Below are positions 13,809 through 47,909 of a DNA stretch of 47,981 nucleotides, in pieces. Within the stretch, counting starts at the first letter, position 1; every line of letters starts with the position of its first letter. This DNA comes from Campylobacterota bacterium (GTDB lineage Bacteria > Campylobacterota > Campylobacteria > Campylobacterales > Sulfurovaceae), in contig WGAM01000039.1 of assembly GCA_015494795.1 (NCBI GenBank), positions 1 to 47,981 on the forward strand, in the 5' to 3' direction. The notes beneath the pieces were generated by a model that made no database searches, had not been told where the DNA came from, and saw only the letters and a program-made list of their open reading frames with translations. Both the position numbers and the translations under genes were made by a program.

Positions 13809-14891
13809 ATGTTAAAAAGAGTGTTTTTAATACTATTGCTAATATATACAGTAGCAGATGCAGAACCATTTAGTAAAATGGCTACAGTAAAACCTGTTTT
13901 AGTTCAAAAAGGGGCTAAAAAAATGTGGTGTAGTGTTTGTGGAATGAATTTAAAGATGTTCTATAAAACATCATATATTGCAGGAGACAAACAGTACTGC
14001 TCTATTAGATGTTTAGTAGCAGATATGGAGAGTAATAAAATAGATTTAAATAGTATAGAGGTAATTGATGTCAATTCTCAAAAGCCTATTTTAGCAAAAG
14101 ATGCCTATTTTGTAATTGGCTCAGATATTAAAGGGACTATGAGTAGCGTTAGTAAATTAGCATTTAAGAGTAAAGATGAGGCTATTAAGTTTATAAAAGA
14201 GCATGGTGGAAAATTAGCTCAATTTCAAGATGCTCTTAAAGAGGCACAAAAATCACTAGATAGTGATAGCTCTATGGTTAAGGCAAAAAAAGAGAAAAAA
14301 TTATATCCTATGGGTAAAAAGATATTTACTAAAAAGTGTAAAGGTAGCCCAAATTTAGATAAATTTAGTGCAGTAAATGAGTTAAAAGTAGCAATAAAAG
14401 ATAATAATATATGTCAAAATATAAATGAGAAACAGCTCCATGCAGTAGCCATATATCTATGGGATAATAGAGAGATTAAAAATAATAGTTATGATATAAA
14501 CATCTCAAAAAAAGATAAATGTCCTATATGTGGTATGTTTGTATATAAATATCCAAAATGGATAACTCAAATAGTATATAGAGATAAAAATAGACTATCT
14601 TTTGATGGTGTAAAAGATATGATGAAATTCTATTTTGACAGAACAAAATATGGGAAATATGAGACTTTAACTAAAGATAATATCTCTCAAATATTAGTAA
14701 GAGACTACTATAGCCAAAAAGTTATAGATGGGAAAAGTGCATATTTTGTAATTGGTTCAGATATAAAAGGACCTATGGGAGATGAGTTAATTCCATTTAA
14801 AGATAAGATTAGTGCTAAAAGTTTCCTAAAAGACCATAATGGTAAAAAGATAGTTAAATTTAATAAAATATCTATAGAAGATTTAAAGTAA
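13809..14891 (+). CDS. Tandem NosL-domain protein with a degenerate cytochrome-c-like middle domain
   Basis: 360 aa. Signal peptide (1-18), then a first NosL domain starting with 'CSVCGM' (41-46) and a second starting with 'CPICGM' near residue 238. Each ends with the same 'AYFVIGSDIKG' segment. NosL proteins bind Cu(I) through a CxxCxM-type site and deliver copper to nitrous oxide reductase in the periplasm. The middle (about 160-222) looks like a small cytochrome c ('GKKIF' start, 'AVAIYLWD' end) but has no CxxCH, so it should not carry haem c. No nosZ is in the window. Copper chaperone activity is inferred; it may serve cuproenzymes other than NosZ. Confidence 0.85.
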   Translation: MLKRVFLILLLIYTVADAEPFSKMATVKPVLVQKGAKKMWCSVCGMNLKMFYKTSYIAGDKQYCSIRCLVADMESNKIDLNSIEVIDVNSQKPILAKDAYFVIGSDIKGTMSSVSKLAFKSKDEAIKFIKEHGGKLAQFQDALKEAQKSLDSDSSMVKAKKEKKLYPMGKKIFTKKCKGSPNLDKFSAVNELKVAIKDNNICQNINEKQLHAVAIYLWDNREIKNNSYDINISKKDKCPICGMFVYKYPKWITQIVYRDKNRLSFDGVKDMMKFYFDRTKYGKYETLTKDNISQILVRDYYSQKVIDGKSAYFVIGSDIKGPMGDELIPFKDKISAKSFLKDHNGKKIVKFNKISIEDLK

Positions 14892-14901
14892 AATATTAAT
14901 G

Positions 14902-14934
14902 GGTTAAAAAATATTTAATTAAATATTTTTAACC
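14902..14934. terminator. Bidirectional terminator between the NosL and DegP-like genes
   Basis: A long near-perfect palindrome (GGTTAAAAAATATTTAA / TTAAATATTTTTAACC) lies between the two convergent stop codons, with A- and T-rich flanks on both sides. It probably stops transcription from both directions. Confidence 0.65.
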
Positions 14935-33553: not shown

Positions 33554-34417
33554 ATGAAAGGAATTATTTTAGCAGGTGGAAGTGGAACAAGACTATATCC
33601 TATTACAAGAGGAGTATCAAAACAATTACTTCCTATATATGATAAGCCTATGATTTACTATCCACTATCGGTCTTAATGTTAGCAGGAATAGATGATATA
33701 TTAGTTATTACTACTCCAAATGATTTAGATAACTATAAAAGGGTTTTAGGTAATGGTTCAAAATGGGGAATATCTATAAGTTATGTGACTCAACCATCTC
33801 CAGATGGTTTAGCTCAAGCCTTTATATTGGGTGAAGATTTTATTGGAGATGATAGTGTATCTCTTATCTTAGGAGATAATATATTTTATGGTCCCGGTTT
33901 AATTCCATTAGTTAAAAAGGCTTCTAAACTAAAGAATGGAGCAATAGTGTTTGGTTATCAGGTAAAAGACCCTGAGCGATTTGGTGTTATTGAATTTGAT
34001 AAAGATAAGAGAGCTATTAGTATAGAAGAGAAGCCCAAAGAACCAAAATCCGATTTTGCAGTTACAGGGTTATATTTCTATAGTAATAGTGTAATTGAGA
34101 TTGCAAAAAAGATTAAACCTTCAAGTAGAGGCGAGTTAGAGATAACATCTATAAATGAGGAGTATCTAAAGAGAGGAGAGCTTAAAGTAGAACTTTTAGG
34201 TAGAGGCTTTGCATGGTTAGATACTGGCACTCACGATACTCTCCTATCAGCTAGTCTATTTGTTCAAACTATAGAGCAGAGACAGGGCTATAAAGTAGCA
34301 TGTTTAGAGGAGATTGCATACAATAGTGGTTGGATAACAAAAGATGATGTATTAAAAATTGCATCACAACTAGATAACAATGGCTATGGATTATATTTAA
34401 GGGATTTAGTAAAATGA
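33554..34417 (+). CDS. rfbA: Glucose-1-phosphate thymidylyltransferase RmlA
   Basis: 287 aa, full length. The nucleotidyltransferase signature is '[11 protein letters not shown]', and '[15 protein letters not shown]' and 'LGDNIFYG' are RmlA motifs. It makes dTDP-glucose from dTTP and glucose 1-phosphate, feeding RmlB. The stop overlaps the rfbB start by four bases. No rmlC or rmlD is present in the window, so the product does not obviously go to rhamnose. Confidence 0.96.
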
Positions 34418-35427
34418 AAAATATTTTAGTAACAGGTGGAGCTGGATTTATTGGTAGTAATTTTATACCATATTTTTTAGATAAGTATGAAGATTACAAA
34501 ATTATAAATTTAGACCTATTAACCTATGCAGGTAGTTTAGAGAACTTAAAAGAGGTTGAAAATAGTATTAGATATAAATTTATAAAAGGAGATATTTGTA
34601 ATAAAGATTTAGTTGAATTTATATTTAGAGAGTATGATATAAGAGGTGTGATACATTTTGCAGCAGAGAGCCATGTCGATAATTCAATCAAAAATCCATC
34701 AATATTTATAGAGACAAATGTCAATGGAACTTTTAATCTTCTAAATAGTGCATATAGATATTGGATGAGTAGTCCATTTAAATATAGAGATGGATATAGA
34801 GACTGTAGATTTCATCATATCTCAACTGATGAGGTATATGGGAGTTTAGGAGATAGTGGACTATTTAGAGAAGATAGCCCTTATGCTCCAAACTCTCCAT
34901 ATAGTGCAAGTAAAGCTAGTGGTGACATGATAGCAAGAAGCTATCACCACACCTATGGATTAAATACAGTAATTACAAACTGCTCTAATAATTATGGAGC
35001 AAAACAGCATAGTGAAAAACTAATTCCAACAATTATTAGAAAAGCTTTAAATAGTGAGCCTATACCGATATATGGAGATGGTAAAAATATTAGAGATTGG
35101 TTATATGTTCTTGACCACTGTTATGGTATAGATTTAGTCTTTCATAATGGAAAAGATGGAGATACATATAATATAGGAGGGAATAATGAGAAGAGAAATT
35201 TAGAGATAGCAGAGATTATATGTGAAATATTAGATAAAACAGTTCCAAAAAAAGAGTCATATAAAAAATTAATAACTTTTGTAGAAGATAGAGCAGGACA
35301 TGATAGAAGATATGCAATAGATGCTACAAAAATAGAAAATGAGTTAGGTTGGAGAGCTAAAGAGAGCTTTGAGAGTGGAATTGAAAAGACAATTAATTGG
35401 TATTTAAATAGAAAGGATAAAAAATGA
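34414..35427 (+). CDS. rfbB: dTDP-glucose 4,6-dehydratase RmlB
   Basis: 337 aa extended SDR. The NAD-binding loop is '[10 protein letters not shown]', the active-site acid is in 'STDEVYG' and the catalytic YxxxK is 'YSASK'. It converts dTDP-glucose to dTDP-4-keto-6-deoxyglucose. It overlaps rfbA and the next aminotransferase by ATGA junctions, so the three-gene block should be translated together and its product handed to the aminotransferase. Confidence 0.96.
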
Positions 35428-36518
35428 CTTATGTAACAAAAATATATATGCCACCAAAAGAGAAATTTAAAAAGTATATAGATGGAATATATGAGAGTGG
35501 TTGGCTTACAAATAATGGACCTTTAGTTCAAGAGTTAGAAAAAAAATTAGAAGAGTATTTAGGGGTAAAAAATCTACTATGTATATCTAGTGGAACAGAT
35601 GCCCTACAGTTTGCATATAGGCTACTCCAACAAGACGGAAAAGAGGTAATTACAACACCTTTTAGTTTTGTATCAACAACAAGTGCAATTGTAGCAGAGA
35701 GATTAACGCCTATATTTGCAGATATTGATAGAGAGACATACAATATAGACCCATCTAATATAGAGGAGCTTATTACAGATAATACTATCGCAATAGCACC
35801 ATGTCATGTATTTGGAAATGCTTGTGATATAGATAGAATAGATAGAATTGCTAAAAAGCATAATCTAAAAGTGATATATGATGCCTCACACGCTTTTGAT
35901 GTTAAATATAAGGGTAAACATATATTAAATTATGGTGATATATCAATTATTAGCTTCCATGCAACTAAGATGTTTCACACTATAGAGGGTGCTGCTATTG
36001 TTATTAAAGATGATGAGTTATATGAAAAGGCGAAGATAGTTAGAAACTATGGGATAGATGCACCTGACTCTGTTGCAATGTTAGGAATTAATGCAAAAAT
36101 CAATGAAGTTGAAGCTGCAATGGGGTTATGCATGTTAGATGAAGAGGAGAGAATTTCTAAAGAGAGAAGAGCTAGTTTTTATTTCTATAAAAGAGAGTTA
36201 AAAGATTATGTTCAACTCCAAAAGAGAAATCCAGATGCAACTCAGAGCTATAGCTACTTTCCTATAGTATTTAGAGATGAAAATGAGATGAAGAGAGTAA
36301 GAGAAGAGCTTTTAAAAGAGAATATTGCTGCAAGACAATATTTTAAACCCTCTCTCGATACTCTACCCTTCGTTAAATCTAAAGTAATGAAAAATTCAAG
36401 AGATATTGCAAGTAGAATTTTAGTAATTCCAATGCACTCTAATGTAGAACCAATAGTTAGTAAGATTATTATTAAAACTCTTGAAGAGATACGAGAAAAA
36501 GAAGAGTGTTTAGTATGA
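35424..36518 (+). CDS. DegT/DnrJ/EryC1-family sugar aminotransferase (probable dTDP-4-keto-6-deoxy-sugar C4 transaminase)
   Basis: 364 aa PLP enzyme. The Schiff-base Lys lies in 'SFHATKMFHTIEGAA', the form seen in C4 transaminases of the VioA/WecE/ArnB type, unlike the C3 enzymes such as FdtB or QdtB where 'PGKNLG' is usual. 'CISSGTDAL' binds the PLP phosphate. With RmlA and RmlB upstream, dTDP-4-amino-4,6-dideoxy-glucose or -galactose is the most likely product. It overlaps rfbB and the WbqC-family gene by ATGA junctions. Confidence 0.88.
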   Translation: MTYVTKIYMPPKEKFKKYIDGIYESGWLTNNGPLVQELEKKLEEYLGVKNLLCISSGTDALQFAYRLLQQDGKEVITTPFSFVSTTSAIVAERLTPIFADIDRETYNIDPSNIEELITDNTIAIAPCHVFGNACDIDRIDRIAKKHNLKVIYDASHAFDVKYKGKHILNYGDISIISFHATKMFHTIEGAAIVIKDDELYEKAKIVRNYGIDAPDSVAMLGINAKINEVEAAMGLCMLDEEERISKERRASFYFYKRELKDYVQLQKRNPDATQSYSYFPIVFRDENEMKRVREELLKENIAARQYFKPSLDTLPFVKSKVMKNSRDIASRILVIPMHSNVEPIVSKIIIKTLEEIREKEECLV

Positions 36519-37207
36519 TAGTTGGAAGTAATCAACCATATCTTTTTGCATATATTGGATATTGGCAACTTATAAATCTTGCAGATGTATATGTTATATC
36601 AGATAGTATGCAGTATATCAAAAAGGGTTATATCAATAGAAATAGTATCTTAGTAGATAATAAAAAACATCTATTTACCTTAGAGGTAATAGGAGTTCAT
36701 GGAGATAGCCTAATAAATGAAGTTAAAGTTGGAAATAACTCAAAAAAGATAATTAAAACTATATTTCATGCCTATAAAAAGGCTCCATATTTTGATGAGG
36801 TATTTCCAATAATAGAAGATATTTTAAGTAATAGAGAGAAAAATTTAGCAAAATATATAGGTTACTCCATTAAAACCATCTCCAACTACTTAGATATAGA
36901 TACTAAGTTTATCTATCTAAGTGATTTACAAGGAGAGACAGAATTAAAAGCACAAGCTAGAACAATTGATATATGTAAAAGGGTTGGTGCTACTAAATAT
37001 GTTAATGCTATCGGTGGACAGAAATTATATAAAAGAGAAGACTTTTTAAAAGAGAATATAGAATTAAATTTTTTAAAAACAGATGATTTTCAATATAGAC
37101 AGTTTAATAGTGAGTTTATACCTCATCTCTCTATTATTGATGTAATGATGTTTAACTCAAAAGATGAGGTAAAAAAGTTATTAAATAGATTTAGTTTAAT
37201 AGAATAG
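36515..37207 (+). CDS. WbqC-family protein
   Basis: 230 aa from ATG 36515, which overlaps the aminotransferase stop by ATGA; a GTG at 36506 is the alternative. 'SNQPYLFAYIGYWQLINLADVY' (here cut to two parts: 'NQPYLFAYIGYWQ' and 'LADVYVISDSMQYIKKGY') is the hallmark of the WbqC-like family (PF08889), found in O-antigen and capsule clusters. Biochemistry is largely unknown; amino-sugar acylation or related tailoring has been suggested by context. It lies between a C4 transaminase and a ThDP enzyme. Confidence 0.82.
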   Translation: MIVGSNQPYLFAYIGYWQLINLADVYVISDSMQYIKKGYINRNSILVDNKKHLFTLEVIGVHGDSLINEVKVGNNSKKIIKTIFHAYKKAPYFDEVFPIIEDILSNREKNLAKYIGYSIKTISNYLDIDTKFIYLSDLQGETELKAQARTIDICKRVGATKYVNAIGGQKLYKREDFLKENIELNFLKTDDFQYRQFNSEFIPHLSIIDVMMFNSKDEVKKLLNRFSLIE

Positions 37208-37222
37208 AAAAAAGGATTATAG

Positions 37223-38962
37223 ATGAAAGTATCAGATTATATAGTAGATTTTTTAGTTGAAAATAAAATAGATAAAGTATTTAGTTATATGGGTAAAAAT
37301 ACACATATTTGTGACTCTATAGATAAAAATAGTAGTATAGAGAATGTATTTACAATACATGAGCAGGGTGCAGGCTTCTCTGCTGAAGCTTATGCAAGAG
37401 TGACTGGTAAAACAGGTGTAGCTACAGTAACTAGTGGTCCCGGAGCTACAAATATAATAACAGCTGTAGCAGATTGTTACTCTGATTCAATCCCAACTAT
37501 TTTTATAGTAGTAGATGTACGACATAGTGAATGTAAACAAGATAGAGATGTTAGACAGTTTGGATTTCAAGAGATAGATATTGTATCTATATGTAAACCG
37601 ATTACAAAATATGCAACAGCCATTAATAGCTTAGATGAGCTTAGATATAAACTTGAGAAAGCATATTTTATATCTCAAAATGGGAGAAAGGGACCAATAG
37701 TTATTAGTCTACCTGAAGATTTACAGTTTGTAATGGATTTTGAGCCTAATAGATATAAATCATTCTTTAATAGTGAAGAGTATAAAAAAGATAAAAATGG
37801 AGATATTAATAGAGATATTAAAAAAACTATAGAGCTAATTAATAGTTCAAAAAGACCTCTAATTTTAGTAGGAGGAGGAGTTAGATTATCAAATAGTGTT
37901 AAAGAGTTGAGAGAGTTTGTAAAAAAAACAGATATTCCAATAGTATATTCTCTTATGGGGAAAGATGCTATTAGCAATGAGTATAAGTATAATTTGGGAT
38001 TTATTGGAAACTTTGGGACTAGATATGCAAATTTAACTATTGCTAACTCTGATTTACTTATAGTTTTAGGCTCAAGATTAGATAATCTTCAGACAGGAAG
38101 AAAGATAGAGACATTTGCAAGGGATGCAAAAATTATTCAAGTTGATATAGATAGAGGTGAACTTGGTATTAGAATGGATATAGACCTTCTTATAAACTCT
38201 GATATTAAAGAGTTTATATCTAAATTAAATAGATTTGATATATCTTTAGATATTAAATCGTGGCAAGATAGAGTTTTAAAATATAAGAGAGCATACCCAA
38301 TTGACTACACTCTAAGTGGAACTAAAAAGATGGGGAACTCTATTATCTCTAAACTATCACAAGAGCTAAGAGATGATGATATTATCTGTGTTGATGTTGG
38401 AGAGCATCAGATGTTAGTAGCACAATCATTAAATACAAAAGATAACCAGAGAGTACTCTTCTCTGGTGGATTTGGAACGATGGGGTTTGCTTTACCATCT
38501 GCAATAGGAGCTACTATAGCTACTAATAGAAGAGCTATTGTTATATCCGGAGATGGTGGATTTCAGATGAATATTCAAGAGTTAGAGATAATAAAGAGAC
38601 GAAACCTACCTATTAAGATATTTATTATTAATAATAATAGTTTACATATGATTAAACTAAAACAAGATGCATATTTAGATGGAAACTATGTAGGCTCAAG
38701 AAAAGACTACTCTGCTCCAAATTTTAAAAAAGTTGGAAAAGCCTATGGGATAGATAGCTATAGAGTATCTAATCTAAAAAATATTAAAAAAATCTTTAAA
38801 GAGAGTCTAAAAACCAATAAGGCTCAAATTATAGATATAGGAATAAAAGCAGATATGACAACTGTTGAGCCACGATTAGATTTTAATAGAGCTTTTGAGG
38901 ATATGACACCACATTTAAGTAGAGATGATTTAAAAAAACAGATGTTAATTGAGTTAGCTTAG
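37223..38962 (+). CDS. Acetolactate-synthase-like thiamine diphosphate enzyme
   Basis: 579 aa with the three ThDP domains in order (Pyr, central, PP). E47 in 'IHEQGAGF' is the cofactor-activating Glu, and 'GDGGFQMNIQEL' near residue 440 begins the GDG...NN metal/ThDP motif that ends with 'IINNN'. It resembles the large subunit of acetolactate synthase, but no small subunit or ilv gene is nearby. In polysaccharide loci, relatives such as YerE transfer an acetyl unit onto a keto-sugar to make a branched-chain sugar. Here that, or making an acyl donor for the amino sugar, is plausible. Reaction unproven. Confidence 0.85.
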   Translation: MKVSDYIVDFLVENKIDKVFSYMGKNTHICDSIDKNSSIENVFTIHEQGAGFSAEAYARVTGKTGVATVTSGPGATNIITAVADCYSDSIPTIFIVVDVRHSECKQDRDVRQFGFQEIDIVSICKPITKYATAINSLDELRYKLEKAYFISQNGRKGPIVISLPEDLQFVMDFEPNRYKSFFNSEEYKKDKNGDINRDIKKTIELINSSKRPLILVGGGVRLSNSVKELREFVKKTDIPIVYSLMGKDAISNEYKYNLGFIGNFGTRYANLTIANSDLLIVLGSRLDNLQTGRKIETFARDAKIIQVDIDRGELGIRMDIDLLINSDIKEFISKLNRFDISLDIKSWQDRVLKYKRAYPIDYTLSGTKKMGNSIISKLSQELRDDDIICVDVGEHQMLVAQSLNTKDNQRVLFSGGFGTMGFALPSAIGATIATNRRAIVISGDGGFQMNIQELEIIKRRNLPIKIFIINNNSLHMIKLKQDAYLDGNYVGSRKDYSAPNFKKVGKAYGIDSYRVSNLKNIKKIFKESLKTNKAQIIDIGIKADMTTVEPRLDFNRAFEDMTPHLSRDDLKKQMLIELA

Positions 38963-38977
38963 AAAAAGGAATATAAG

Positions 38978-40432
38978 ATGAGTAGTATAAAATCAAAAGG
39001 AATAGAGGCTTTTATCTGGGATTTACTTGGTAAAGTTTCTGTTCACGCCTCTAGTTTTATTGTTATGATTATCTTAGCGAGACTATTAACTCCTGCTGAT
39101 TTTGGATTAATTGCTATGATTATGGTAATAGTTGGTATTGCTACAATATTCTCAGATATAGGACTTGGAGGGGCAATAATACAGAGAAGAAGACTCCTCC
39201 AGATACACTATTCATCTGTATTTTTCTTTAATATAACAGCAGGTTTTATATTAACTCTATTAACATTCTTCTCATCTAATCTAATTGCTGATTTTTATAA
39301 TAACAGAGAGCTAATACCAATAGTTCAAGTTATGTCAACTCTTTTTATAATTAGCTCTTTTCATGCACTACAGATGGTAATTTTAAGAAAAGAGTTAAAC
39401 TATAAACTATTAACACAAGTTACTCTTACAGCATCTATATCTAGTGGTATTATAGGAATAATATTAGCATTTTTAGATTTTGGAGTATGGAGTTTAGTAG
39501 CACAGATATTATCTCGTGAACTGATTACTAATATTGTAATTTGGAGAAAAACTGCTTGGATACCATCATTTGCATTCTCATTTAAAGCTCTAAAACAGCT
39601 TTGGGGATATGGATTTAATATGTTTCTATCTGGAGTTATAGATACTATCTATGAGAAATTAGACTATATGATAATTGGTAAACTATTCTCTCCTACTATA
39701 TTAGGATTTTTTCATCAAGCAAAACAGTTAAATCAACTTGTAATTAAATACTCATCTGGAAGTTTAATGTCTGTACTATTTCCAATACTAAGTAAAATAC
39801 AGAAAGATATATCCTATTTTAGAAGAGTTGTTATTAAATCTCTAGGAGTAATATGCTTTATAACCTTTTTCATACTAGGAGAGCTATATGTAACAGCAGA
39901 TGAGTTAATAGTTGAACTATTTGGAGATAAATGGGAAGCAACTATTTACTATTTTAAAATATTAGCCCTAAGTGGATTTGCATACCCTATTAGTGCTTTA
40001 ATGGTAAATATCTTAAGTAGTAGAGGAAAATCTAAAGATTTTTTAAAATTAGAGATATATAAAAAGATAATACAATCTGTTAATCTATATATTCTATATC
40101 TCTATGGAATAGATATTTTTCTATATGGACTAATTATAACATCAATATTAGGAACTTCACTAAATATTAAATTTGCAACTAATGAGATTGGTCTCTCTTT
40201 TATGAGTATTATAAGACCAATTATTATTAGTGCATTAATAACAGCTATAGTTACTCTATCTATACTTTTTATTACAAGCTATATTAATTTAAATGATTTT
40301 TTTATGATTATAATAAAAGGGGGACTCTTTATGGTGCTATATATAGCTATTAATTGGATATTTAGAGTTAAATCATTTGAGTATATTATTGAACAGATAC
40401 AACCTATATTAACAAAAAGGATAATAAAATGA
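38978..40432 (+). CDS. PST/WzxC-type lipopolysaccharide or capsule flippase
   Basis: 484 aa, about 12-14 transmembrane helices. The opening 'LLGKVSVHASSFIVMIILARLL' pattern (start 'GIEAFIWDLLGK', then 'LLTPADFGLIAM') marks the MOP-superfamily polysaccharide translocases of the PST group. It probably flips the lipid-linked repeat unit to the periplasm. It starts 15 bp after the ThDP gene and overlaps the next glycosyltransferase by ATGA. A Wzx role fits with Wza/Wzc upstream. Confidence 0.88.
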   Translation: MSSIKSKGIEAFIWDLLGKVSVHASSFIVMIILARLLTPADFGLIAMIMVIVGIATIFSDIGLGGAIIQRRRLLQIHYSSVFFFNITAGFILTLLTFFSSNLIADFYNNRELIPIVQVMSTLFIISSFHALQMVILRKELNYKLLTQVTLTASISSGIIGIILAFLDFGVWSLVAQILSRELITNIVIWRKTAWIPSFAFSFKALKQLWGYGFNMFLSGVIDTIYEKLDYMIIGKLFSPTILGFFHQAKQLNQLVIKYSSGSLMSVLFPILSKIQKDISYFRRVVIKSLGVICFITFFILGELYVTADELIVELFGDKWEATIYYFKILALSGFAYPISALMVNILSSRGKSKDFLKLEIYKKIIQSVNLYILYLYGIDIFLYGLIITSILGTSLNIKFATNEIGLSFMSIIRPIIISALITAIVTLSILFITSYINLNDFFMIIIKGGLFMVLYIAINWIFRVKSFEYIIEQIQPILTKRIIK

Positions 40433-41436
40433 TAAACAGAACAGAAAAAGATATAATGAAAAATTGGAAAAGTAGTAATATAGTTGTAACTATTAGCTGT
40501 GTTACATATAATCATGAATATTGTATCTCTCAAGCACTCGATAGTTTTTTAATGCAAGAGACAGAGTTTGCTTTTGAGGTAATTATACATGATGATGTAT
40601 CAACAGATAAAACAGTAGATATTATTAAAGAGTATCAGAAAAAATTTCCAAATATTATAAAACCAATATATCAAACTGAAAATCAATTTTCACAAGGGAT
40701 AAATCCTATGTCTTTTATCTTAACAAAAGTTAAAGGTAGATATATGGCATTTTGTGATGGAGATGATTTCTGGACAGATAATAAAAAATTAGAAATTCAA
40801 GTAGATATTATGGAGAAAAATCCAAATATTGATATGAGTTTTCACTCTGTATATGAGTTTGTTAATGGTAAAAAGAGAAGAGTTTTAGCTAAACAGGCAG
40901 ATAGTAATAAGATATTCAGACCAAATGAGATTATATTAGGTGGTGGAGAGTTCTGCCCTACTGCATCTTTAATCTTTAGAACTGAAATAGTCTCAAAAAT
41001 TCCAAAAGATTGGTTTAAAAAGATGATACCCGGAGACTATCCTCTACAGATGATAGGCTCTAGTAGAGGTGGAGCTTTATATATAAATAGATGTATGTCA
41101 GCATATAGAGTTGGAGAAGCATCAGCTTGGAGCAATTTAAATTTTGAAAATTCTCAAAAACAGAAAAAACATTTACTATCTTTTCATAAAATGTTAAATA
41201 GAGTTAATAGATATTTAGATAACAGATTTGACAAAGAGATAAAAGAGATTATATATAGTAGTAGTCTAGCTTTTATAAAGAGAAGAGCTATTGATATATC
41301 TATAAGAGATGAGATATTTAATAGATATAGAGATATTTTTTCTAAAAAACAGAAGATATTATGGTATCTATTATATAGAAATCAAGATTTACATAATAGT
41401 TTAGCGAAAATTAAAAATATGGAATTTTTAAAATAA
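40429..41436 (+). CDS. GT2-family glycosyltransferase
   Basis: 335 aa. GT-A fold: 'VTISCVTYNHEYCISQAL' opens the nucleotide-binding half, 'HDDVSTDKT' follows, and the metal-binding acidic motif is 'FCDGDDFW' near residue 104. No transmembrane helix is evident. The ATG overlaps the flippase stop; an internal Met at residue 10 is an alternative start. It is likely one of the enzymes that build the repeat unit on undecaprenyl phosphate in the cytosol. Donor and acceptor are unknown. Confidence 0.85.
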   Translation: MINRTEKDIMKNWKSSNIVVTISCVTYNHEYCISQALDSFLMQETEFAFEVIIHDDVSTDKTVDIIKEYQKKFPNIIKPIYQTENQFSQGINPMSFILTKVKGRYMAFCDGDDFWTDNKKLEIQVDIMEKNPNIDMSFHSVYEFVNGKKRRVLAKQADSNKIFRPNEIILGGGEFCPTASLIFRTEIVSKIPKDWFKKMIPGDYPLQMIGSSRGGALYINRCMSAYRVGEASAWSNLNFENSQKQKKHLLSFHKMLNRVNRYLDNRFDKEIKEIIYSSSLAFIKRRAIDISIRDEIFNRYRDIFSKKQKILWYLLYRNQDLHNSLAKIKNMEFLK

Positions 41437-41437
41437 G

Positions 41438-42484
41438 ATGAAAAAGATACTATTTATTATTAGCTCATTAAATGTCGGTGGTGCTGAGAAGATTTTAACA
41501 ACTCTTGCAAACCATTTTGATAATATTGGATATAAGGTCACTATATTAATAGCCACTAAAAATAGTGGTTTTTTTCCTCTAAATAAAAATATAGAGGTAG
41601 TAGAATTAAAAAGAGTAAAACCTATCTTTACTTTAATAAATGAGTTAAAAAGAGAGATTTTAGCAATTAATCCAGATATTACTATTAGTTTTATGTCAGA
41701 GATGAATATCTTAGCAACCATCGCATCAAAATTAGCTAATAAACCTATATTAGTATCTGAGAGAAGTGCTTATGATTTTTTAGATATTAAACCTATCTGG
41801 AAAAAGCTTAGAAGAGTTATATATCCATTTGTAGATGGTCTTGTTGTATTAACTAATGCAGATAAGAATAGATACCACTTTGTAAAAAATAGATATATTA
41901 TAGAAAATCCTCTTATATTAAAGCATAATCACTTAAATATTAAAAGAGAAAAGATAGTTTTAGCTGTTGGAAGATTAAATCCTGTCAAGGGATTTGATTT
42001 ACTAATTAAAGCCTTTGCAAAAGTTAAAAATAGAGATTGGAGATTAAGAGTTGTAGGAGATGGAAGAGAGAGAGAAAAACTTGAAAAATTAGTTAAAAAA
42101 TTAAATTTAGAAGAGAGAGTTAAACTTATTGGATTGGTAAAAGATGTAGAGTTAGAGTATAAGAGAGCATCTATATTTGTACTATCTTCGAGAACTGAAG
42201 GTTTTCCGGGGGTATTATGTGAAGCTATGGGATATGGTTGTGCTGTTATATCTTTTGACTCTCCATCAGCACCTAGAGAGATTATAACAGATAAAAAAGA
42301 TGGAATATTAGTTAAACCTAATAGTATAGAAGAGTTAGCCTCTAAAATAGATTATCTAATAGATAATCCTAAAATAAGAGATAATTTAGCACAAAATGCA
42401 CAAAAAATATCTAATAGACTCTCAATAGATATAATTGGAATTAAGTGGTTTAGAGTAATAGATAAAATATTAAGAAGGGGATAA
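41438..42484 (+). CDS. GT4-family glycosyltransferase (GT-B fold)
   Basis: 348 aa. N-terminal 'SLNVGGAEK' glycine loop, then 'AVGRLNPVKGFDLLIKA' and 'SSRTEGFPGVLCEAM', where the ExxxxxxxE pair binds the donor phosphate. These mark retaining GT4 enzymes. It starts one base after the GT2 stop. It probably adds a sugar to the repeat unit in the cytosol; specificity cannot be read from sequence. Confidence 0.88.
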   Translation: MKKILFIISSLNVGGAEKILTTLANHFDNIGYKVTILIATKNSGFFPLNKNIEVVELKRVKPIFTLINELKREILAINPDITISFMSEMNILATIASKLANKPILVSERSAYDFLDIKPIWKKLRRVIYPFVDGLVVLTNADKNRYHFVKNRYIIENPLILKHNHLNIKREKIVLAVGRLNPVKGFDLLIKAFAKVKNRDWRLRVVGDGREREKLEKLVKKLNLEERVKLIGLVKDVELEYKRASIFVLSSRTEGFPGVLCEAMGYGCAVISFDSPSAPREIITDKKDGILVKPNSIEELASKIDYLIDNPKIRDNLAQNAQKISNRLSIDIIGIKWFRVIDKILRRG

Positions 42485-42488
42485 TAAA

Positions 42489-44345
42489 GTGTGTGGAATA
42501 GTAGGATTTAATTGTAAAGATAGCAAAAAATTAGAGAGTATGATGAACTCAATTAGACATAGAGGGCCAGATGATAGTGGTACTTTTGAGAGTAAAAATT
42601 TCTCTTTAGGTCATGTTAGACTCTCTATTTTAGATTTAAGCTCTCATGGACACCAACCAATGCACTATAAAAATCTATCAATGGTATATAATGGAGAGAT
42701 ATATAATTTTAAAGAGATAAAAGAGGAGTTAAAAACTTACGGTTATAAATTTAACTCATATAGTGATAGTGAAGTGGTGCTTAAAGCTTACCATAAATGG
42801 GGGGTAGATGCAATTAATAGATTTATTGGTATGTTTGCAATTGCAATATATGATAATATATCTTTAGAGTTAACTCTTATTAGAGATAGAGTTGGTGTAA
42901 AACCACTATACTACTACTTTGATGGTAGAGATTTTGTTTTTGGTAGTGAATTAAAACCAATTATAGAGTTTTTTAGAGATAAAAAAGAGTTAAAGATTAG
43001 TAAAGATGCACTATTTGAGTATTTTAAAGTTGGATATATCTCTTCAAATCTATCTATTTTTGAAAATTGCTATAAGGTTCCAGCAGGAAACTATCTTATA
43101 TTTAACACTCAAAAATCTAAAATAGAGATAAAAGAGTATTGGTCAATCTTACCATTTTTTAAACTTCCAAAATTCCAAAAGAGTGAAGAGGAGTTAATTG
43201 ATGAGCTTGAGTCTATTTTAATAAAAGCTTTTAGATATAGAATGGTATCAGATGTGCCTGTAGGAATATTTTTGAGTGGAGGAGTTGATAGTAGTATTGT
43301 AGCATCAATTCTACAGAAACATTATGGAAATATTCATACATTTACAATAGGTTTTAAAGAAGAAAAATATAATGAAGCTAAATATGCCAAAGAGGTAGCA
43401 GAGTATATTGGTACAACACATACAGAGAAATATTTAGATATCTCAGGTGCAAAAGATATATTAGATAGATTTGTTGAAATTTATGATGAGCCATTTGGAG
43501 ATAGTAGTGGAATCCCAACAACTCTAGTATCTCAAGTAGCAAGAGATACAGATGTAAAAGTTGTATTGAGTGCAGATGGTGGAGACGAGATATTTTGTGG
43601 ATATAGAAGATATTGGACTATTAATAATATTGGTAATAAAATATTTAAAGTTCCATACACTATTAGAAGAGGAACTAACTCTATTATGAATTTAATAGGA
43701 GATAAAAATATCTCTAAAGTCATAACTAATAGTAATATAGAATTTAAATATAAATTGATACATAAAATTTTAAAAAATAGCAATAGCTGGAGAGATATAT
43801 ATCTAGCACTGACAAGTTATGATATAGATGGATTATTAGATTTTGAAAAAAAGATAGATGAAAATAGTTTTGAAATAGGAGAGAAGATAGCTCCTATGCA
43901 GGGTATGATGTTGTGGGATTATCATAGATATATGGTTGATGATATTTTAACTAAAGTTGACAGAGCCACAATGAGTCTATCTATTGAGGGGAGAGAGCCT
44001 CTCCTTGACCATAATATAGCTGAGTTTATGGCACAAGTACCTTTTGAGATGAAGTATAAAAATGGAGATAGTAAATATCTATTAAAAAAAGTCCTAGAAA
44101 GATATATTCCAAAAGAGATGATATATAGAAAAAAGATGGGGTTTGGAATACCTATATTTGAGTGGTTCAGTAGAGACTTAAAAAAACTATTTGATATATA
44201 TTTTCAAAAATCTAAACTAGCTAAACATAACCTTTTAAATCAAGAGTATATAGATAGAGAGTATAAAAAGATGAGTAAAAAAAATATTGTAAATTTATGG
44301 CATATTTTAATATTTCAAATATGGTATGAAAAGTATATGAGATAG
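42489..44345 (+). CDS. asnB: Asparagine synthase-like glutamine amidotransferase (AsnB family)
   Basis: 618 aa. GTG start followed by the nucleophile Cys2 ('MCGIVGF'); 'RHRGPDDSG' and 'NGEIYNF' complete the Ntn glutaminase, and the synthetase ATP loop is 'SGGVDSS' near residue 260. In a polysaccharide cluster such enzymes usually amidate a uronic acid carboxyl group (WbpS-like role) instead of making asparagine. The heparinase-like gene that begins at the right edge fits a uronic-acid-containing polymer. True asparagine synthesis cannot be excluded. Confidence 0.92.
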   Translation: MCGIVGFNCKDSKKLESMMNSIRHRGPDDSGTFESKNFSLGHVRLSILDLSSHGHQPMHYKNLSMVYNGEIYNFKEIKEELKTYGYKFNSYSDSEVVLKAYHKWGVDAINRFIGMFAIAIYDNISLELTLIRDRVGVKPLYYYFDGRDFVFGSELKPIIEFFRDKKELKISKDALFEYFKVGYISSNLSIFENCYKVPAGNYLIFNTQKSKIEIKEYWSILPFFKLPKFQKSEEELIDELESILIKAFRYRMVSDVPVGIFLSGGVDSSIVASILQKHYGNIHTFTIGFKEEKYNEAKYAKEVAEYIGTTHTEKYLDISGAKDILDRFVEIYDEPFGDSSGIPTTLVSQVARDTDVKVVLSADGGDEIFCGYRRYWTINNIGNKIFKVPYTIRRGTNSIMNLIGDKNISKVITNSNIEFKYKLIHKILKNSNSWRDIYLALTSYDIDGLLDFEKKIDENSFEIGEKIAPMQGMMLWDYHRYMVDDILTKVDRATMSLSIEGREPLLDHNIAEFMAQVPFEMKYKNGDSKYLLKKVLERYIPKEMIYRKKMGFGIPIFEWFSRDLKKLFDIYFQKSKLAKHNLLNQEYIDREYKKMSKKNIVNLWHILIFQIWYEKYMR

Positions 44346-44358
44346 AGGATATATAGTT

Positions 44359-45747
44359 ATGATAGATGAGAAATATTTTATTGATAGTAGATATATTATG
44401 GTTACGCTAATATTTATCCCTATAGTTTCACTATGGGGTGCATATTTAGATAACAATAGTGCTATTTTTACACTCCCTTTTATATTTATAGCTATTGGAA
44501 TTTTATTTATCTCTCTTATTAATAGAGTTGAGAATATTAGAAATAGTATAAATATATTTTTAATATTTTTTCTTATCTATCTTACATATACATTTGTTAT
44601 ACATTTTGGTCTTATAGAGTACTATAACACTTCATATCCATTTGTACAATCAGATGAAGGTCTATTTCATGAAGGAGCTAGAGATGTTGCTAATAAGTTT
44701 AGATTAAGTTATAGGTTTGAAGATATAGCTAAAATTAGAGGTTATGGAGATTTACCAGGTTCAATATATTTTAATGCTCAAATTGCAAGATTATCAGAAC
44801 TTTTTGGAGAACATACATTTTTAGTTCAAAAAGAGGCTGTTACACTAGTATCTGCTCTTATTCCTACTATAATGTATTCTCTTGCTAGATTATATTTTAA
44901 TGAGAAAATATCCACTACAGTGGCTATAGTATATGGACTATTCTCATTTGTTCCATATCTATCTAGTCTCTTACTTCGAGATGCACATATTGCTCTTATG
45001 TACATAACAACTTTTTATATTCTATTAGAGAGAATATCTCTAATTAGATTAACTATTTTAGTTCTCTTCTCTATTGCATCTTACTATTTTAGGGAGCAGA
45101 CAGGTATATTTATGGTAGGATTTACAGTTGTATATTTTTTTCAATTTGTAAATTTAACTGTTAAAAACAATTATACAAGACTATTTGTATATATAATGAC
45201 TCTTATAGTACTTATATTAATTGTACTAAATAATGACTATGTTATGGGAATATATAATCAAACCTTTAATAGTTCAGCAGAACATGTAGCAGAACATACA
45301 GCATCAGGCTCTTTAGGTGCTAAAATTGCAAAATTACCATTTGGATTAAGTTATATAACACTTTTAGGATTTTCTCAAATCCAACCATTTCCTCCATCAC
45401 TAATATTTATCTCTAAAAAAGGTATGTTTCAATTTACATATCTATTAGCAGGAATATCTTGGTATTTTGGCTGGGGATTTCTACTATATGGTATTTTAAA
45501 AAAAAAGATATTAAAAAAAATAGAGCTAAAACTAATAATTATGTTTATATTCTCTATAACCTATTTAGTATTAGTTGCAGTTATAGAATTTAATCAAAGA
45601 AGGCAGATGGCAGTATATCCCATTTTATATATAGTAATGGTATTTAGCTATTTAGAGATGAGTATTAGTGAGAGAACTAAGGTATGGACATTTATGTTTC
45701 TATCTTATGTTGCAATCACATTAGCATTTAATTATATAAAATTATAG
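44359..45747 (+). CDS. Polytopic membrane protein, candidate Wzy polymerase or GT-C enzyme
   Basis: 462 aa with about 11 transmembrane helices and a large outer loop after helix 3 containing 'SDEGLFHEGARD' (about 97-108), an acidic motif of the sort seen near the active site of GT-C glycosyltransferases. No family can be named by eye. In this cluster the missing functions are the O-unit polymerase (Wzy) and possibly a GT-C transferase, so this is the leading Wzy candidate. Located between asnB and a GT4 gene on the same strand. Confidence 0.65.
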   Translation: MIDEKYFIDSRYIMVTLIFIPIVSLWGAYLDNNSAIFTLPFIFIAIGILFISLINRVENIRNSINIFLIFFLIYLTYTFVIHFGLIEYYNTSYPFVQSDEGLFHEGARDVANKFRLSYRFEDIAKIRGYGDLPGSIYFNAQIARLSELFGEHTFLVQKEAVTLVSALIPTIMYSLARLYFNEKISTTVAIVYGLFSFVPYLSSLLLRDAHIALMYITTFYILLERISLIRLTILVLFSIASYYFREQTGIFMVGFTVVYFFQFVNLTVKNNYTRLFVYIMTLIVLILIVLNNDYVMGIYNQTFNSSAEHVAEHTASGSLGAKIAKLPFGLSYITLLGFSQIQPFPPSLIFISKKGMFQFTYLLAGISWYFGWGFLLYGILKKKILKKIELKLIIMFIFSITYLVLVAVIEFNQRRQMAVYPILYIVMVFSYLEMSISERTKVWTFMFLSYVAITLAFNYIKL

Positions 45748-45760
45748 AAAAGAGTTTAAT

Positions 45761-46828
45761 ATGAGGAAAAAAATATTATTTTTTCTACCACTTATGAACA
45801 GTGGTGGAGCAGAGAGAGTTACAATCAATATTATAAAAGAGTTAGATAAGAGATACTATCGTATATACCTTATTTTAGGTTCAGATAAAATAGGAAACTC
45901 ACTACATCTAATTCCTAAAGATATAGTTATATACTCACTTGATGTAGATAGAACTATATACTCTATATTTAAACTAAGAAGAATAATAAAACAGATAGAA
46001 CCAGACATTATATACTCCTCTCTAAATCGTACTCATATAGCTATTAATCTAGCACTTATTGGATTAAATAGACCTAAGAGCATTATGAGAATACCAAGTT
46101 CCCCCAAATTGGTAAATAGATATATTAAACACAGTTTTCTATTTAGTCTGTTTTTAAATAAATCCCTAAAGAGTGCTGATGTAGTAATTGCACAGACTCC
46201 AGAGATGAGAGATGAGGCAGTAGAGTACTATCATATAGATAGAGATAAGATAAAAGTTCTATTAAACCCTTTAGATAGAAATTTGATAGATAAATCTATA
46301 AAAAATCAGAAAAATCCATTTGATAAGAGATATATAAATGTAGTAGCATCAGGAAGATTATCTAAAGAGAAGGGTTTTGATATTCTAATTAGGGCTTTTA
46401 AGATAGTCTATATAAAAAATAGCAATTTTAGACTTCATATTATAGGAATAGATTATAATAATGAGATATATGAATATAGAAAATTAATAGAAAAATTGGG
46501 ACTATTAGGTATAGTAAATTTTTTAGGATTTAAAACTAACCCATATATATACTATAACTATAGTGACCTATTTGTTCTATCTTCAAGACGAGAGGGATTA
46601 CCTAATGTTGTATTAGAAAATATATATTTAAAAAAACCTATAGTAGCTACTAAATGTATTCCATTTATGAGTGAGCTTATTAAAGATGGAAAGAATGGAT
46701 TTTTAGTTGAAGTTGAGAATATAGAGCAGTTAGCAGATGCCATCTTAAGATATAAAGAGCTTAAAGATATAGGCATAGAGGTCTTTAAACAGAGTGATGT
46801 AAATAGTTTTTTTAAAGAGTTAATTTAA
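45761..46828 (+). CDS. GT4-family glycosyltransferase (GT-B fold)
   Basis: 355 aa. 'LMNSGGAERVTINII' at the N-terminus, 'VASGRLSKEKGFDILIRAF' in the donor half, and 'SSRREGLPNVVLEN' with the paired Glu of GT4 enzymes. It resembles the GT4 enzyme at 41438 in layout but is clearly diverged, so the two probably add different sugars. Starts 13 bp after the membrane protein gene. Confidence 0.88.
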   Translation: MRKKILFFLPLMNSGGAERVTINIIKELDKRYYRIYLILGSDKIGNSLHLIPKDIVIYSLDVDRTIYSIFKLRRIIKQIEPDIIYSSLNRTHIAINLALIGLNRPKSIMRIPSSPKLVNRYIKHSFLFSLFLNKSLKSADVVIAQTPEMRDEAVEYYHIDRDKIKVLLNPLDRNLIDKSIKNQKNPFDKRYINVVASGRLSKEKGFDILIRAFKIVYIKNSNFRLHIIGIDYNNEIYEYRKLIEKLGLLGIVNFLGFKTNPYIYYNYSDLFVLSSRREGLPNVVLENIYLKKPIVATKCIPFMSELIKDGKNGFLVEVENIEQLADAILRYKELKDIGIEVFKQSDVNSFFKELI

Positions 46829-46841
46829 TGGATAGAGAGTT

Positions 46842-47909
46842 ATGAAAAAAGATATATTAATATTAGGACCTAGCCCATTTAATAAAAATATAAATCATGC
46901 AGGTGGACAGTTAACTGCCATATCTAATTTAGTAGAATATATGGATAGAGAGTCTATATCTTATGATATTATAGATATTTTTAGAAGCTCATACCCTCCA
47001 CCATCAAATATAGATAAATTAAAGATGTCATGGAGTAGATATAGGGAGTTAAAAGCTATTTTAAAGAAAAATAGCTATAAAGGAGCATTAGTGTTTGCAA
47101 CATTTGGATTAGGATTTTGGGAAAAGCTAATATTTGCTCTTATGATAGAGAATAGAGGAGTAGAGACACTATTTTTTATCCGTTCAGGACACTTTATGAA
47201 CTCTGTTATTAAAAAAGATTACAATATCCCAATTAAAAGATTTTTAATGAATAGATTATCCTATATAGGTCATCAGGGTGGTAAGTGGGAAGAGTTTTAT
47301 AGAAAAGTAGGAGTTAAAAGAGATAAACTAATTAAGATTTTAAACTGGATAGAGATTAGAGATTATAGTAGAGAGTTCTCAGATAATACGACATTCTTAT
47401 ATGTTGGTGCTATAGTAGAAAAAAAAGGTGTAATTGATTTGTTTGATGTTATCTCGAAATATAATGAATTAAAAAAATATAATTTTATATTTGTTGGTGG
47501 AGGTTCACTATTAGATGAGTTGAGCTATAAGAGTAGAAATTTTAAAAATATTAAATTTATGGGGTGGTTAAAACAGGATGAGGTTGCTAAAATATATGAG
47601 AGAGCTGATGTTTTAATATTACCATCTTATGCAGAGGGATTTCCTAATGTAATATCAGAAGCATTAAACTATAGATTACCAATAATCTCTACTAATGTTG
47701 GTGGAATATCAGAGAGTGTAATAGAGAACTTTAATGGTTTTTTAATGAACCCAAAAGATAGACTAAAACTATATAAATCTATTAGAAAATTAGGAGAGTC
47801 TAAGGAGCTAAAAGAGAAATTTTCTAAAAATACTGAAAAGATACTATATAAAAATCACTCTATAGATAATAACTCTAAAAAAATATTTAATCTTTTTAAT
47901 ATTCGGTAA
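46842..47909 (+). CDS. GT4-family glycosyltransferase (GT-B fold)
   Basis: 355 aa. N-terminal 'HAGGQLTAISNLVEY' is the acceptor-side loop; 'FLYVGAIVEKKGVIDLFDVI' and 'PSYAEGFPNVISEAL' are the donor-side GT4 motifs. It is the fourth glycosyltransferase of the cluster (one GT2, three GT4), so a repeat unit of about four or five sugars is likely if all are used. Starts 13 bp after the previous gene. Confidence 0.87.
   Translation: MKKDILILGPSPFNKNINHAGGQLTAISNLVEYMDRESISYDIIDIFRSSYPPPSNIDKLKMSWSRYRELKAILKKNSYKGALVFATFGLGFWEKLIFALMIENRGVETLFFIRSGHFMNSVIKKDYNIPIKRFLMNRLSYIGHQGGKWEEFYRKVGVKRDKLIKILNWIEIRDYSREFSDNTTFLYVGAIVEKKGVIDLFDVISKYNELKKYNFIFVGGGSLLDELSYKSRNFKNIKFMGWLKQDEVAKIYERADVLILPSYAEGFPNVISEALNYRLPIISTNVGGISESVIENFNGFLMNPKDRLKLYKSIRKLGESKELKEKFSKNTEKILYKNHSIDNNSKKIFNLFNIR

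Follow-up and report, generated by a model that had tools for sequence, protein, structure and literature searches.

The window, the whole stretch of 47,981 nucleotides analyzed here, belongs to a Campylobacterota genome of the Sulfurovaceae. An open reading frame was confirmed at 13809-14891 on the plus strand, as are all features of the gene given below, and encodes a protein of 360 amino acids arranged as a first NosL domain (NosL1), a module predicted to have a cytochrome fold without haem, and a second NosL domain (NosL2). The gene stands alone, since the upstream open reading frame is divergent and the downstream one convergent. A near-perfect, A+T-rich inverted repeat lies between two convergent genes at 14902-14934 (z -2.06, with 4 of 200 shuffles as good) and, from its sequence, is possibly a bidirectional terminator. 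Elsewhere in the window, a long run of same-strand open reading frames (33554-47909) reads by eye like a surface polysaccharide cluster.

Two NosL domains and their putative metal motifs

The first 18 amino acids (13809-13862) read as a signal peptide, with a helix at residues 2-15 in the structural model. A lipobox cysteine is absent, and a lipobox-like pattern occurs in one of 60 homologues. The NosL family PF05573 matched the protein twice (E 4.4e-49, 166.6 bits against a curated cut-off of 24), at 13920-14237 for NosL1 (56.3 bits) and 14496-14879 for NosL2 (114.4 bits), and also matched all 60 homologues. In the genome search each domain separately exceeded the 24-bit cut-off, and the two are the sole PF05573 matches genome-wide, a count that is to be read with the fact that diverged NosL-like proteins can score below the model. 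The original prediction of two NosL domains in one chain was borne out by this double match and by the CxxCGM motifs at C41-M46 and C238-M243.

Both domains carry CxxCGM and a further conserved methionine. In NosL1 the motif lies at 13929-13946 (C41 in 59, C44 in 57, and M46 in 57 of 60 homologues) and the second methionine, M111, at 14139-14141 (57/60). In NosL2 the motif at 14520-14537 (C238, C241, and M243) and the second methionine M323 (14775-14777) are each kept in 60/60. The domains differ in that NosL1 has an additional CSxxC at 13998-14012 (C64 in 55/60, C68 in 57/60), which is missing in NosL2, and NosL2 has a conserved histidine, H343 (14835-14837, 58/60). All eight cysteines of the protein (C41, C44, C64, C68, C177, C202, C238, and C241) are kept in at least 55 of the 60 aligned homologues. 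The extra CSxxC, the conserved cysteine pair of the module, and the ABC transporter partner described below had been missed by the original prediction. Among 95 full-length proteins, 84 have both CxxCGM motifs and 11 have one (78 and 11 of the 89 distinct sequences).

NosL2 matched the NosL structure 7og7 with a Z of 17.2. In the whole-protein model the NosL1 region matched only MerB (Z 6.3), which, going by the title of a reference, is a structural relative of NosL. In the accessible text of PMC6530538, CXXCXM and a second methionine are tied to Cu(I) binding in clade II NosL. By analogy, the two NosL-type sites of the present protein would each bind Cu(I). An alternative is that NosL1 is a structural or sensing C4 site, perhaps zinc-like, and that only NosL2 handles copper; this fits the rest of the copper-carrier explanation that we prefer below, and the odds of the two overlap. 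NosL1 has four conserved cysteines (41, 44, 64, and 68) against two in NosL2, and it is eroded in some lineages, whereas CxxCGM and the second methionine of NosL2 are present throughout the homologues. However, NosL1 keeps C44, M46, and its second methionine in 57 of 60, as does clade II NosL, and we consider a C4 site somewhat unlikely.

Distribution and genomic partners

A match to the whole protein is encoded in 64 of 100 genomes, that of the window included, and the module profile matched 125 of 347 genomes of the phylum, each at least 90% complete. The nearest named records, at 84% and 82%, place this phylum as Campylobacterota. The best 80 of a larger number of matches include named records from Sulfurimonas, Sulfurospirillum, Campylobacter showae, Malaciobacter, and several Deferribacteraceae, as well as metagenome-assembled genomes whose bin labels are Bacteroidetes, Ignavibacteriales, and Acidobacteria. 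Some genomes have the protein split in two genes, encoding NosL-module and module-NosL. In a tree of the NosL2 domain, single module-NosL genes fell in several places among full-length proteins, with 8 changes, at least 5 of them forced by supported branches. Because the labels were assigned from patterns, a contig end truncates one short row or more, and the bootstrap is unsettled, we claim from these sequences only that the split forms are scattered across the tree.

Downstream of the gene, many relatives encode an ABC transporter. Among 122 loci, which include contig-end cases and some duplicates and come from partly overlapping locus sets, 86 had the permease cluster and 75 the ATPase cluster; 64 encoded a membrane protein of about 320 amino acids, 45 a small protein, 11 another kind of small protein, and 45 a membrane-anchored NosL-like protein. 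Counting only loci where the gene is full-length and has 2.5 kb or more of sequence after it, the permease lay on the same strand within 700 bp downstream in 43 of 61 loci of named records and in 11 of 15 further loci, with 4 genes common to both sets. In the other 18 of the 61 it was not downstream; it lay upstream in L113 and on the other strand in L158. The membrane protein matched no Pfam or NCBIfam family. In many relatives, the gene of the small single-TM protein separates the NosL gene from that of the permease. The anchored NosL-like protein (about 167 amino acids, L063 13094-13594 and relatives) matched PF05573 at E 0.011, below the cut-off; its gene closes the ABC operon and, in some nos clusters, is found between those of the ATPase and NosY as well. 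A DsbD_2 (PF13386) protein was encoded in the same run in 11 cases, and 22 of the 60 homologues matched the heavy-metal-binding domain PF19335 at E 0.01.

The genome of the window has this operon on another contig (C100), unlinked to the window gene, and in G016, G006, and G017 the gene likewise does not adjoin the transporter. C100 encodes an intact small protein, permease, ATPase, and membrane protein together with a CRP/FNR-like regulator, and no anchored NosL-like gene was seen in this operon. The small protein (L074 6706-6999) has about 100 amino acids, a single transmembrane segment, conserved LPDL and RHR motifs, and no family match; the membrane protein (L074 8848-9804, about 319 amino acids) has conserved PGAMC, VSCC, and HCPFC motifs and is a frequent member of the operon. 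A permease homologue in L036 matched PF02687 (FtsX) and PF12704 (MacB_PCD). The permease on C100 matched lolCE at E 1.5e-13, below the cut-off of that model, and has four hydrophobic segments in a LolCE/MacB-like 4-TM topology, a periplasmic domain, and no cysteines. From its sequence, the partner is thus assigned to the LolCE/MacB type of ABC permease. In the literature searched, which left most subscription papers outside, we found no description of this protein architecture or of the operon as a copper system.

The gene and the permease occur together. Among the 66 genomes at least 95% complete, 36 had module and permease, none had the module only, 2 had the permease only (G067 and G080), and 28 had neither, giving a Fisher p of 1e-16 that ignores the kinship of genomes and is too small because they are related. 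This main table leaves out the 34 of 100 genomes below 95% completeness; over all 100, the counts were 50, 1, 5, and 44. The module was scored at E <0.01, the permease at about E 1e-49 or better, and nosZ at 150 bits or more with fragments included, and these thresholds were fixed after the lists were inspected.

Association with nosZ was at most weak. Among the same 66 genomes nosZ was scored in 17 of 36 with the module and in 9 of 30 without it (17, 19, 9, and 21 genomes with both, the module only, nosZ only, and neither; p 0.21). Over all 100 the corresponding counts were 24, 27, 14, and 35 (p 0.066, odds ratio 2.2), and the permease was associated with nosZ at p 0.04. A partnership with NosZ as a general rule was rejected by this co-occurrence, with the weak tendency over 100 genomes remaining.

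The clade II nosZ model had no match in the window, in keeping with the original prediction that no nosZ lies nearby. A search of the genome, which had been proposed as a check, found a single nosZ match, a C-terminal piece on contig C50 (L073, 484-1367, 140 bits with the clade II model), which falls below the 150-bit threshold and was scored absent; nosD was not found in the genome. The piece is 90.7% identical over 884 bases to the nosZ of G016, which is intact and whose contig also carries a separate single NosL. The 483 bases before the piece and the 393 bases that follow have no match in any of the five nos loci used for comparison. The break in nosZ may be real, or may reflect a chimeric contig or an assembly gap, since the contig begins 483 bases upstream of the piece.

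The window gene itself reads as intact and constrained. Against G016, dN was 0.078 and dS 0.326, a pairwise dN/dS of 0.24 that covers more than the time since nosZ broke. A three-point estimate gave about 0.33 for the branch of the window genome and 0.17 for that of G016, so some relaxation of constraint here is possible. As the gene is kept intact and constrained while nosZ is broken, a role beyond NosZ can be argued with caution.

An alternative explanation is that the protein is a maturation factor specific to NosZ, a NosL of larger size that supplies CuZ or CuA of nitrous oxide reductase with copper, retained here as a leftover. The weak tendency over 100 genomes is in its favor, as is the placement of the gene in the same run after nos genes in L051, L061, L107, L146, and L159, with the permease also in the run in L051, L061, and L146; in L155 the gene and permease lie upstream of nosZ. 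According to the accessible part of PMC6530538, NosL is a CuZ chaperone in Paracoccus. In the accessible part of PMC4794192, the nos cluster of Sulfurospirillum cavolei is said to contain an inserted ABC permease and ATPase; these may be the present operon, and the NosL architecture is not described there. In opposition, the link to nosZ was not significant among the 66 genomes, where 19 of the 36 module-bearing ones had no scored nosZ, the window gene is intact where nosZ is broken, and G016 has a separate single NosL on the contig of its nosZ. We consider a role confined to NosZ unlikely.

Another enzyme is suggested by five distinct loci in which mcc-cluster genes precede the gene and its ABC operon: G058 (the same as L045 and L164), G069 (the same as L047), L150, L152, and L162. 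The genes upstream encode an FKBP isomerase, an Fe-S protein, an NrfD-like protein (two short frames at this position in L162), and a fusion of ResB with a cytochrome c assembly protein, with families assigned from one member per cluster. One to four genes, Sel1-repeat proteins among them, separate the mcc genes from the carrier operon. Where the reductase is in view (L047 and L162) it has seven CxxCH motifs and one CX15CH; that of L162 matched the solved MccA structure 4rkm with an E of 0, and G058 and G069 also match 4rkm. MccA is counted as a copper enzyme in the accessible part of PMC7558416. It was found in 2 of the 100 genomes searched and would be a client in some lineages only, since the other 98 lack it. 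MccA as the client in the genome of the window was rejected, as it was not found there. A Wolinella gene, mccL, has reportedly been named and studied.

The copper enzymes searched for in the genome of the window were NosZ, MccA, and CcoN. A cbb3 oxidase is present, as it is in nearly every genome, which puts a cbb3 partnership beyond the reach of a co-occurrence test. The original prediction had suggested copper handling for another cuproenzyme; the at most weak link to nosZ, the broken nosZ here, and the MccA cluster near the operon in five loci agree with the direction of this suggestion. Its other suggestion, copper relay between the two sites, is hypothetical.

The protein could instead serve in defense against copper or thiol-binding metals, sequestering excess periplasmic Cu(I) which the ABC machine helps to expel. 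Two thiol-rich sites per chain, the PF19335 matches, the ABC partner, and the DsbD_2 genes in the same run would suit such a role. Yet the 4-TM, LolCE/MacB-like permease without cysteines is unlike a metal pore, and the nos and mcc respiratory reductase clusters near some loci point to supply, making defense a doubtful explanation.

The middle module

The module between the NosL domains spans amino acids 157-225 (14277-14483, with a profile match at 14283-14471) and comprises about 65 residues without a CxxCH. By eye, its sequence resembles the start and end of a small cytochrome c. No Pfam or NCBIfam family matched it above curated cut-offs, and in the 60 homologues no Pfam cytochrome family was matched at E 0.01. 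An hhalign comparison with 36 local families (3 chosen for CxxCH, one of which, cluster 9, is an Fe-S protein, and 33 controls) gave a best probability of 4%, to a haem family, over 30 columns away from its CxxCH.

An AlphaFold model of the whole protein, built on a 60-sequence alignment, had a mean pLDDT of 94, and the module folded alone had 82. The best match to the module in the whole-protein model was cytochrome c6 (1ls9; Z 6.9 over 64 residues, 2.6 A), and every row covering the module at Z 4 or above was a cytochrome c or cytochrome domain; below Z 4, two unrelated chains also fell on the module (7wtx_R at 3.7 and 4i3h_B at 3.5). For the module alone, the top 20 rows were cytochromes c or cytochrome domains, from Z 6.3 (cytochrome c6) to 4.0, with unrelated chains from rank 21 on. 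The tool warns that a Z below 8 may reflect a merely common arrangement, and the argument lies in the consistency of the family. Foldseek by itself gave weak matches, with E near 1.2 and 1.3 and probabilities of 0.66 and 0.72. The models thus agree with the original prediction of a haem-less, cytochrome-like middle, whose stated refutation, a middle region without structural likeness to cytochrome c, was not observed.

A loss of haem, which the original prediction also asserted, was not supported. None of 150 family members from 118 loci contains CxxCH; they comprise 95 full-length proteins, 40 split forms, and 15 of other kinds, not all of which have the module, and represent 143 distinct sequences. 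A haem-bearing ancestor is therefore not demonstrated; the proposed alignment of homologues uncovered none. When the module profile was run over 100 relatives, all of its matches at E <1e-3 but one coincided with whole-protein matches, and the exception (G053:C8) is a 43-amino-acid frame at a contig end.

Two cysteines of the module are conserved. Judged from the motif, C177 (14337-14339, 60/60) is close to where the first haem cysteine would be, and C202 (14412-14414) is kept in all 59 readable homologues. By DSSP these were the only strand or bridge residues of the module in both models (32 and 57 in the fragment). A C177-C202 disulfide is likely, given the bridge residues in both models and the conservation in homologues, and in the modelled cytochrome fold it probably stands where haem would. 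Unconventional binding of haem or another cofactor by the module is very improbable, for all its cytochrome c fold and the ResB and cytochrome c assembly protein encoded near mcc loci, as CxxCH is absent from the 150 members and it has no conserved histidine (position 211 is histidine in 6/60) or methionine (M168 in 36/60).

Proposed function and known systems

With moderate confidence, we propose by analogy that the protein is a soluble two-site Cu(I) carrier for ABC-driven copper loading, parallel to NosDFYL. Because the gene accompanies the ABC transporter far more than nosZ, it probably feeds copper to another enzyme. The carrier would be periplasmic. Its cytochrome c-fold module, haem-less and pinned by the C177-C202 disulfide, would act as a rigid spacer with a NosL-type Cu(I) site at either end. 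Its partner machine would consist of the single-TM small protein, the 4-TM permease with a large periplasmic domain, a LolD/FtsE-like ATPase, and the cysteine-bearing membrane protein, joined in part of the loci by the anchored NosL-like protein. Much as NosL docks on NosDFY, the carrier may by analogy bring Cu(I) to this machine, which would use ATP to drive its release into a periplasmic cuproenzyme. The client could be MccA sulfite reductase where it is adjacent and NosZ in loci whose operon is part of a nos cluster; in the genome of the window cbb3 oxidase would be the client only as the remainder once nosZ and MccA are excluded.

A wider possibility, which we raise tentatively, is a second general ABC-powered machine for periplasmic copper loading, with a two-site chaperone in which a cytochrome fold with a disulfide in place of haem provides rigidity or docking; the machine would serve MccA, NosZ, or other respiratory cuproenzymes according to lineage. 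If the mechanism is true, it provides a supply route for haem-copper enzymes such as MccA. The module would also exemplify a cytochrome fold that persists after the loss of haem, or that never had it, and in which a disulfide takes the place of the cofactor. Proteins annotated as NosL are easily taken as a sign of N2O reduction, and here the label can mislead, because this architecture, common in the phylum, marks an ABC system at most weakly tied to nosZ.

Among known systems, class I cytochrome c (cytochrome c6, 1ls9 and 9krd) and the modelled module have their helices arranged alike, with about 64 residues superposed at an rmsd of about 2.6 A, whereas the module has neither CxxCH nor axial histidine or methionine, has a probable C177-C202 disulfide, and shows no detected sequence homology. 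The cluster of the haem-copper sulfite reductase MccA (4rkm) is followed by the carrier and ABC operon in the five loci, although MccA occurs in 2 of 100 genomes and not in that of the window. The NosDFYL machine would share, by analogy, the logic of a chaperone and an ABC transporter; the present system has another ABC type of permease and ATPase, an extra membrane protein, and a small protein, and its genome lacks nosD. The characterized NosL copper chaperones (PF05573; 7og7, 2hpu, and the NosL chain of 7osf) have a lipid-anchored N-terminal cysteine and a place in a nos cluster with nosZ, of which the former is absent from the window protein and the latter from its genome. The window protein further differs in its two domains around a third fold, the CSxxC added in NosL1, the lack of a lipobox, and a LolCE/MacB-type ABC partner instead of NosFY with at most a weak link to nosZ. 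It shares with them the family, the fold (Z 17.2 for NosL2), CXXCXM with a second methionine, the export signal, and an ABC partner.
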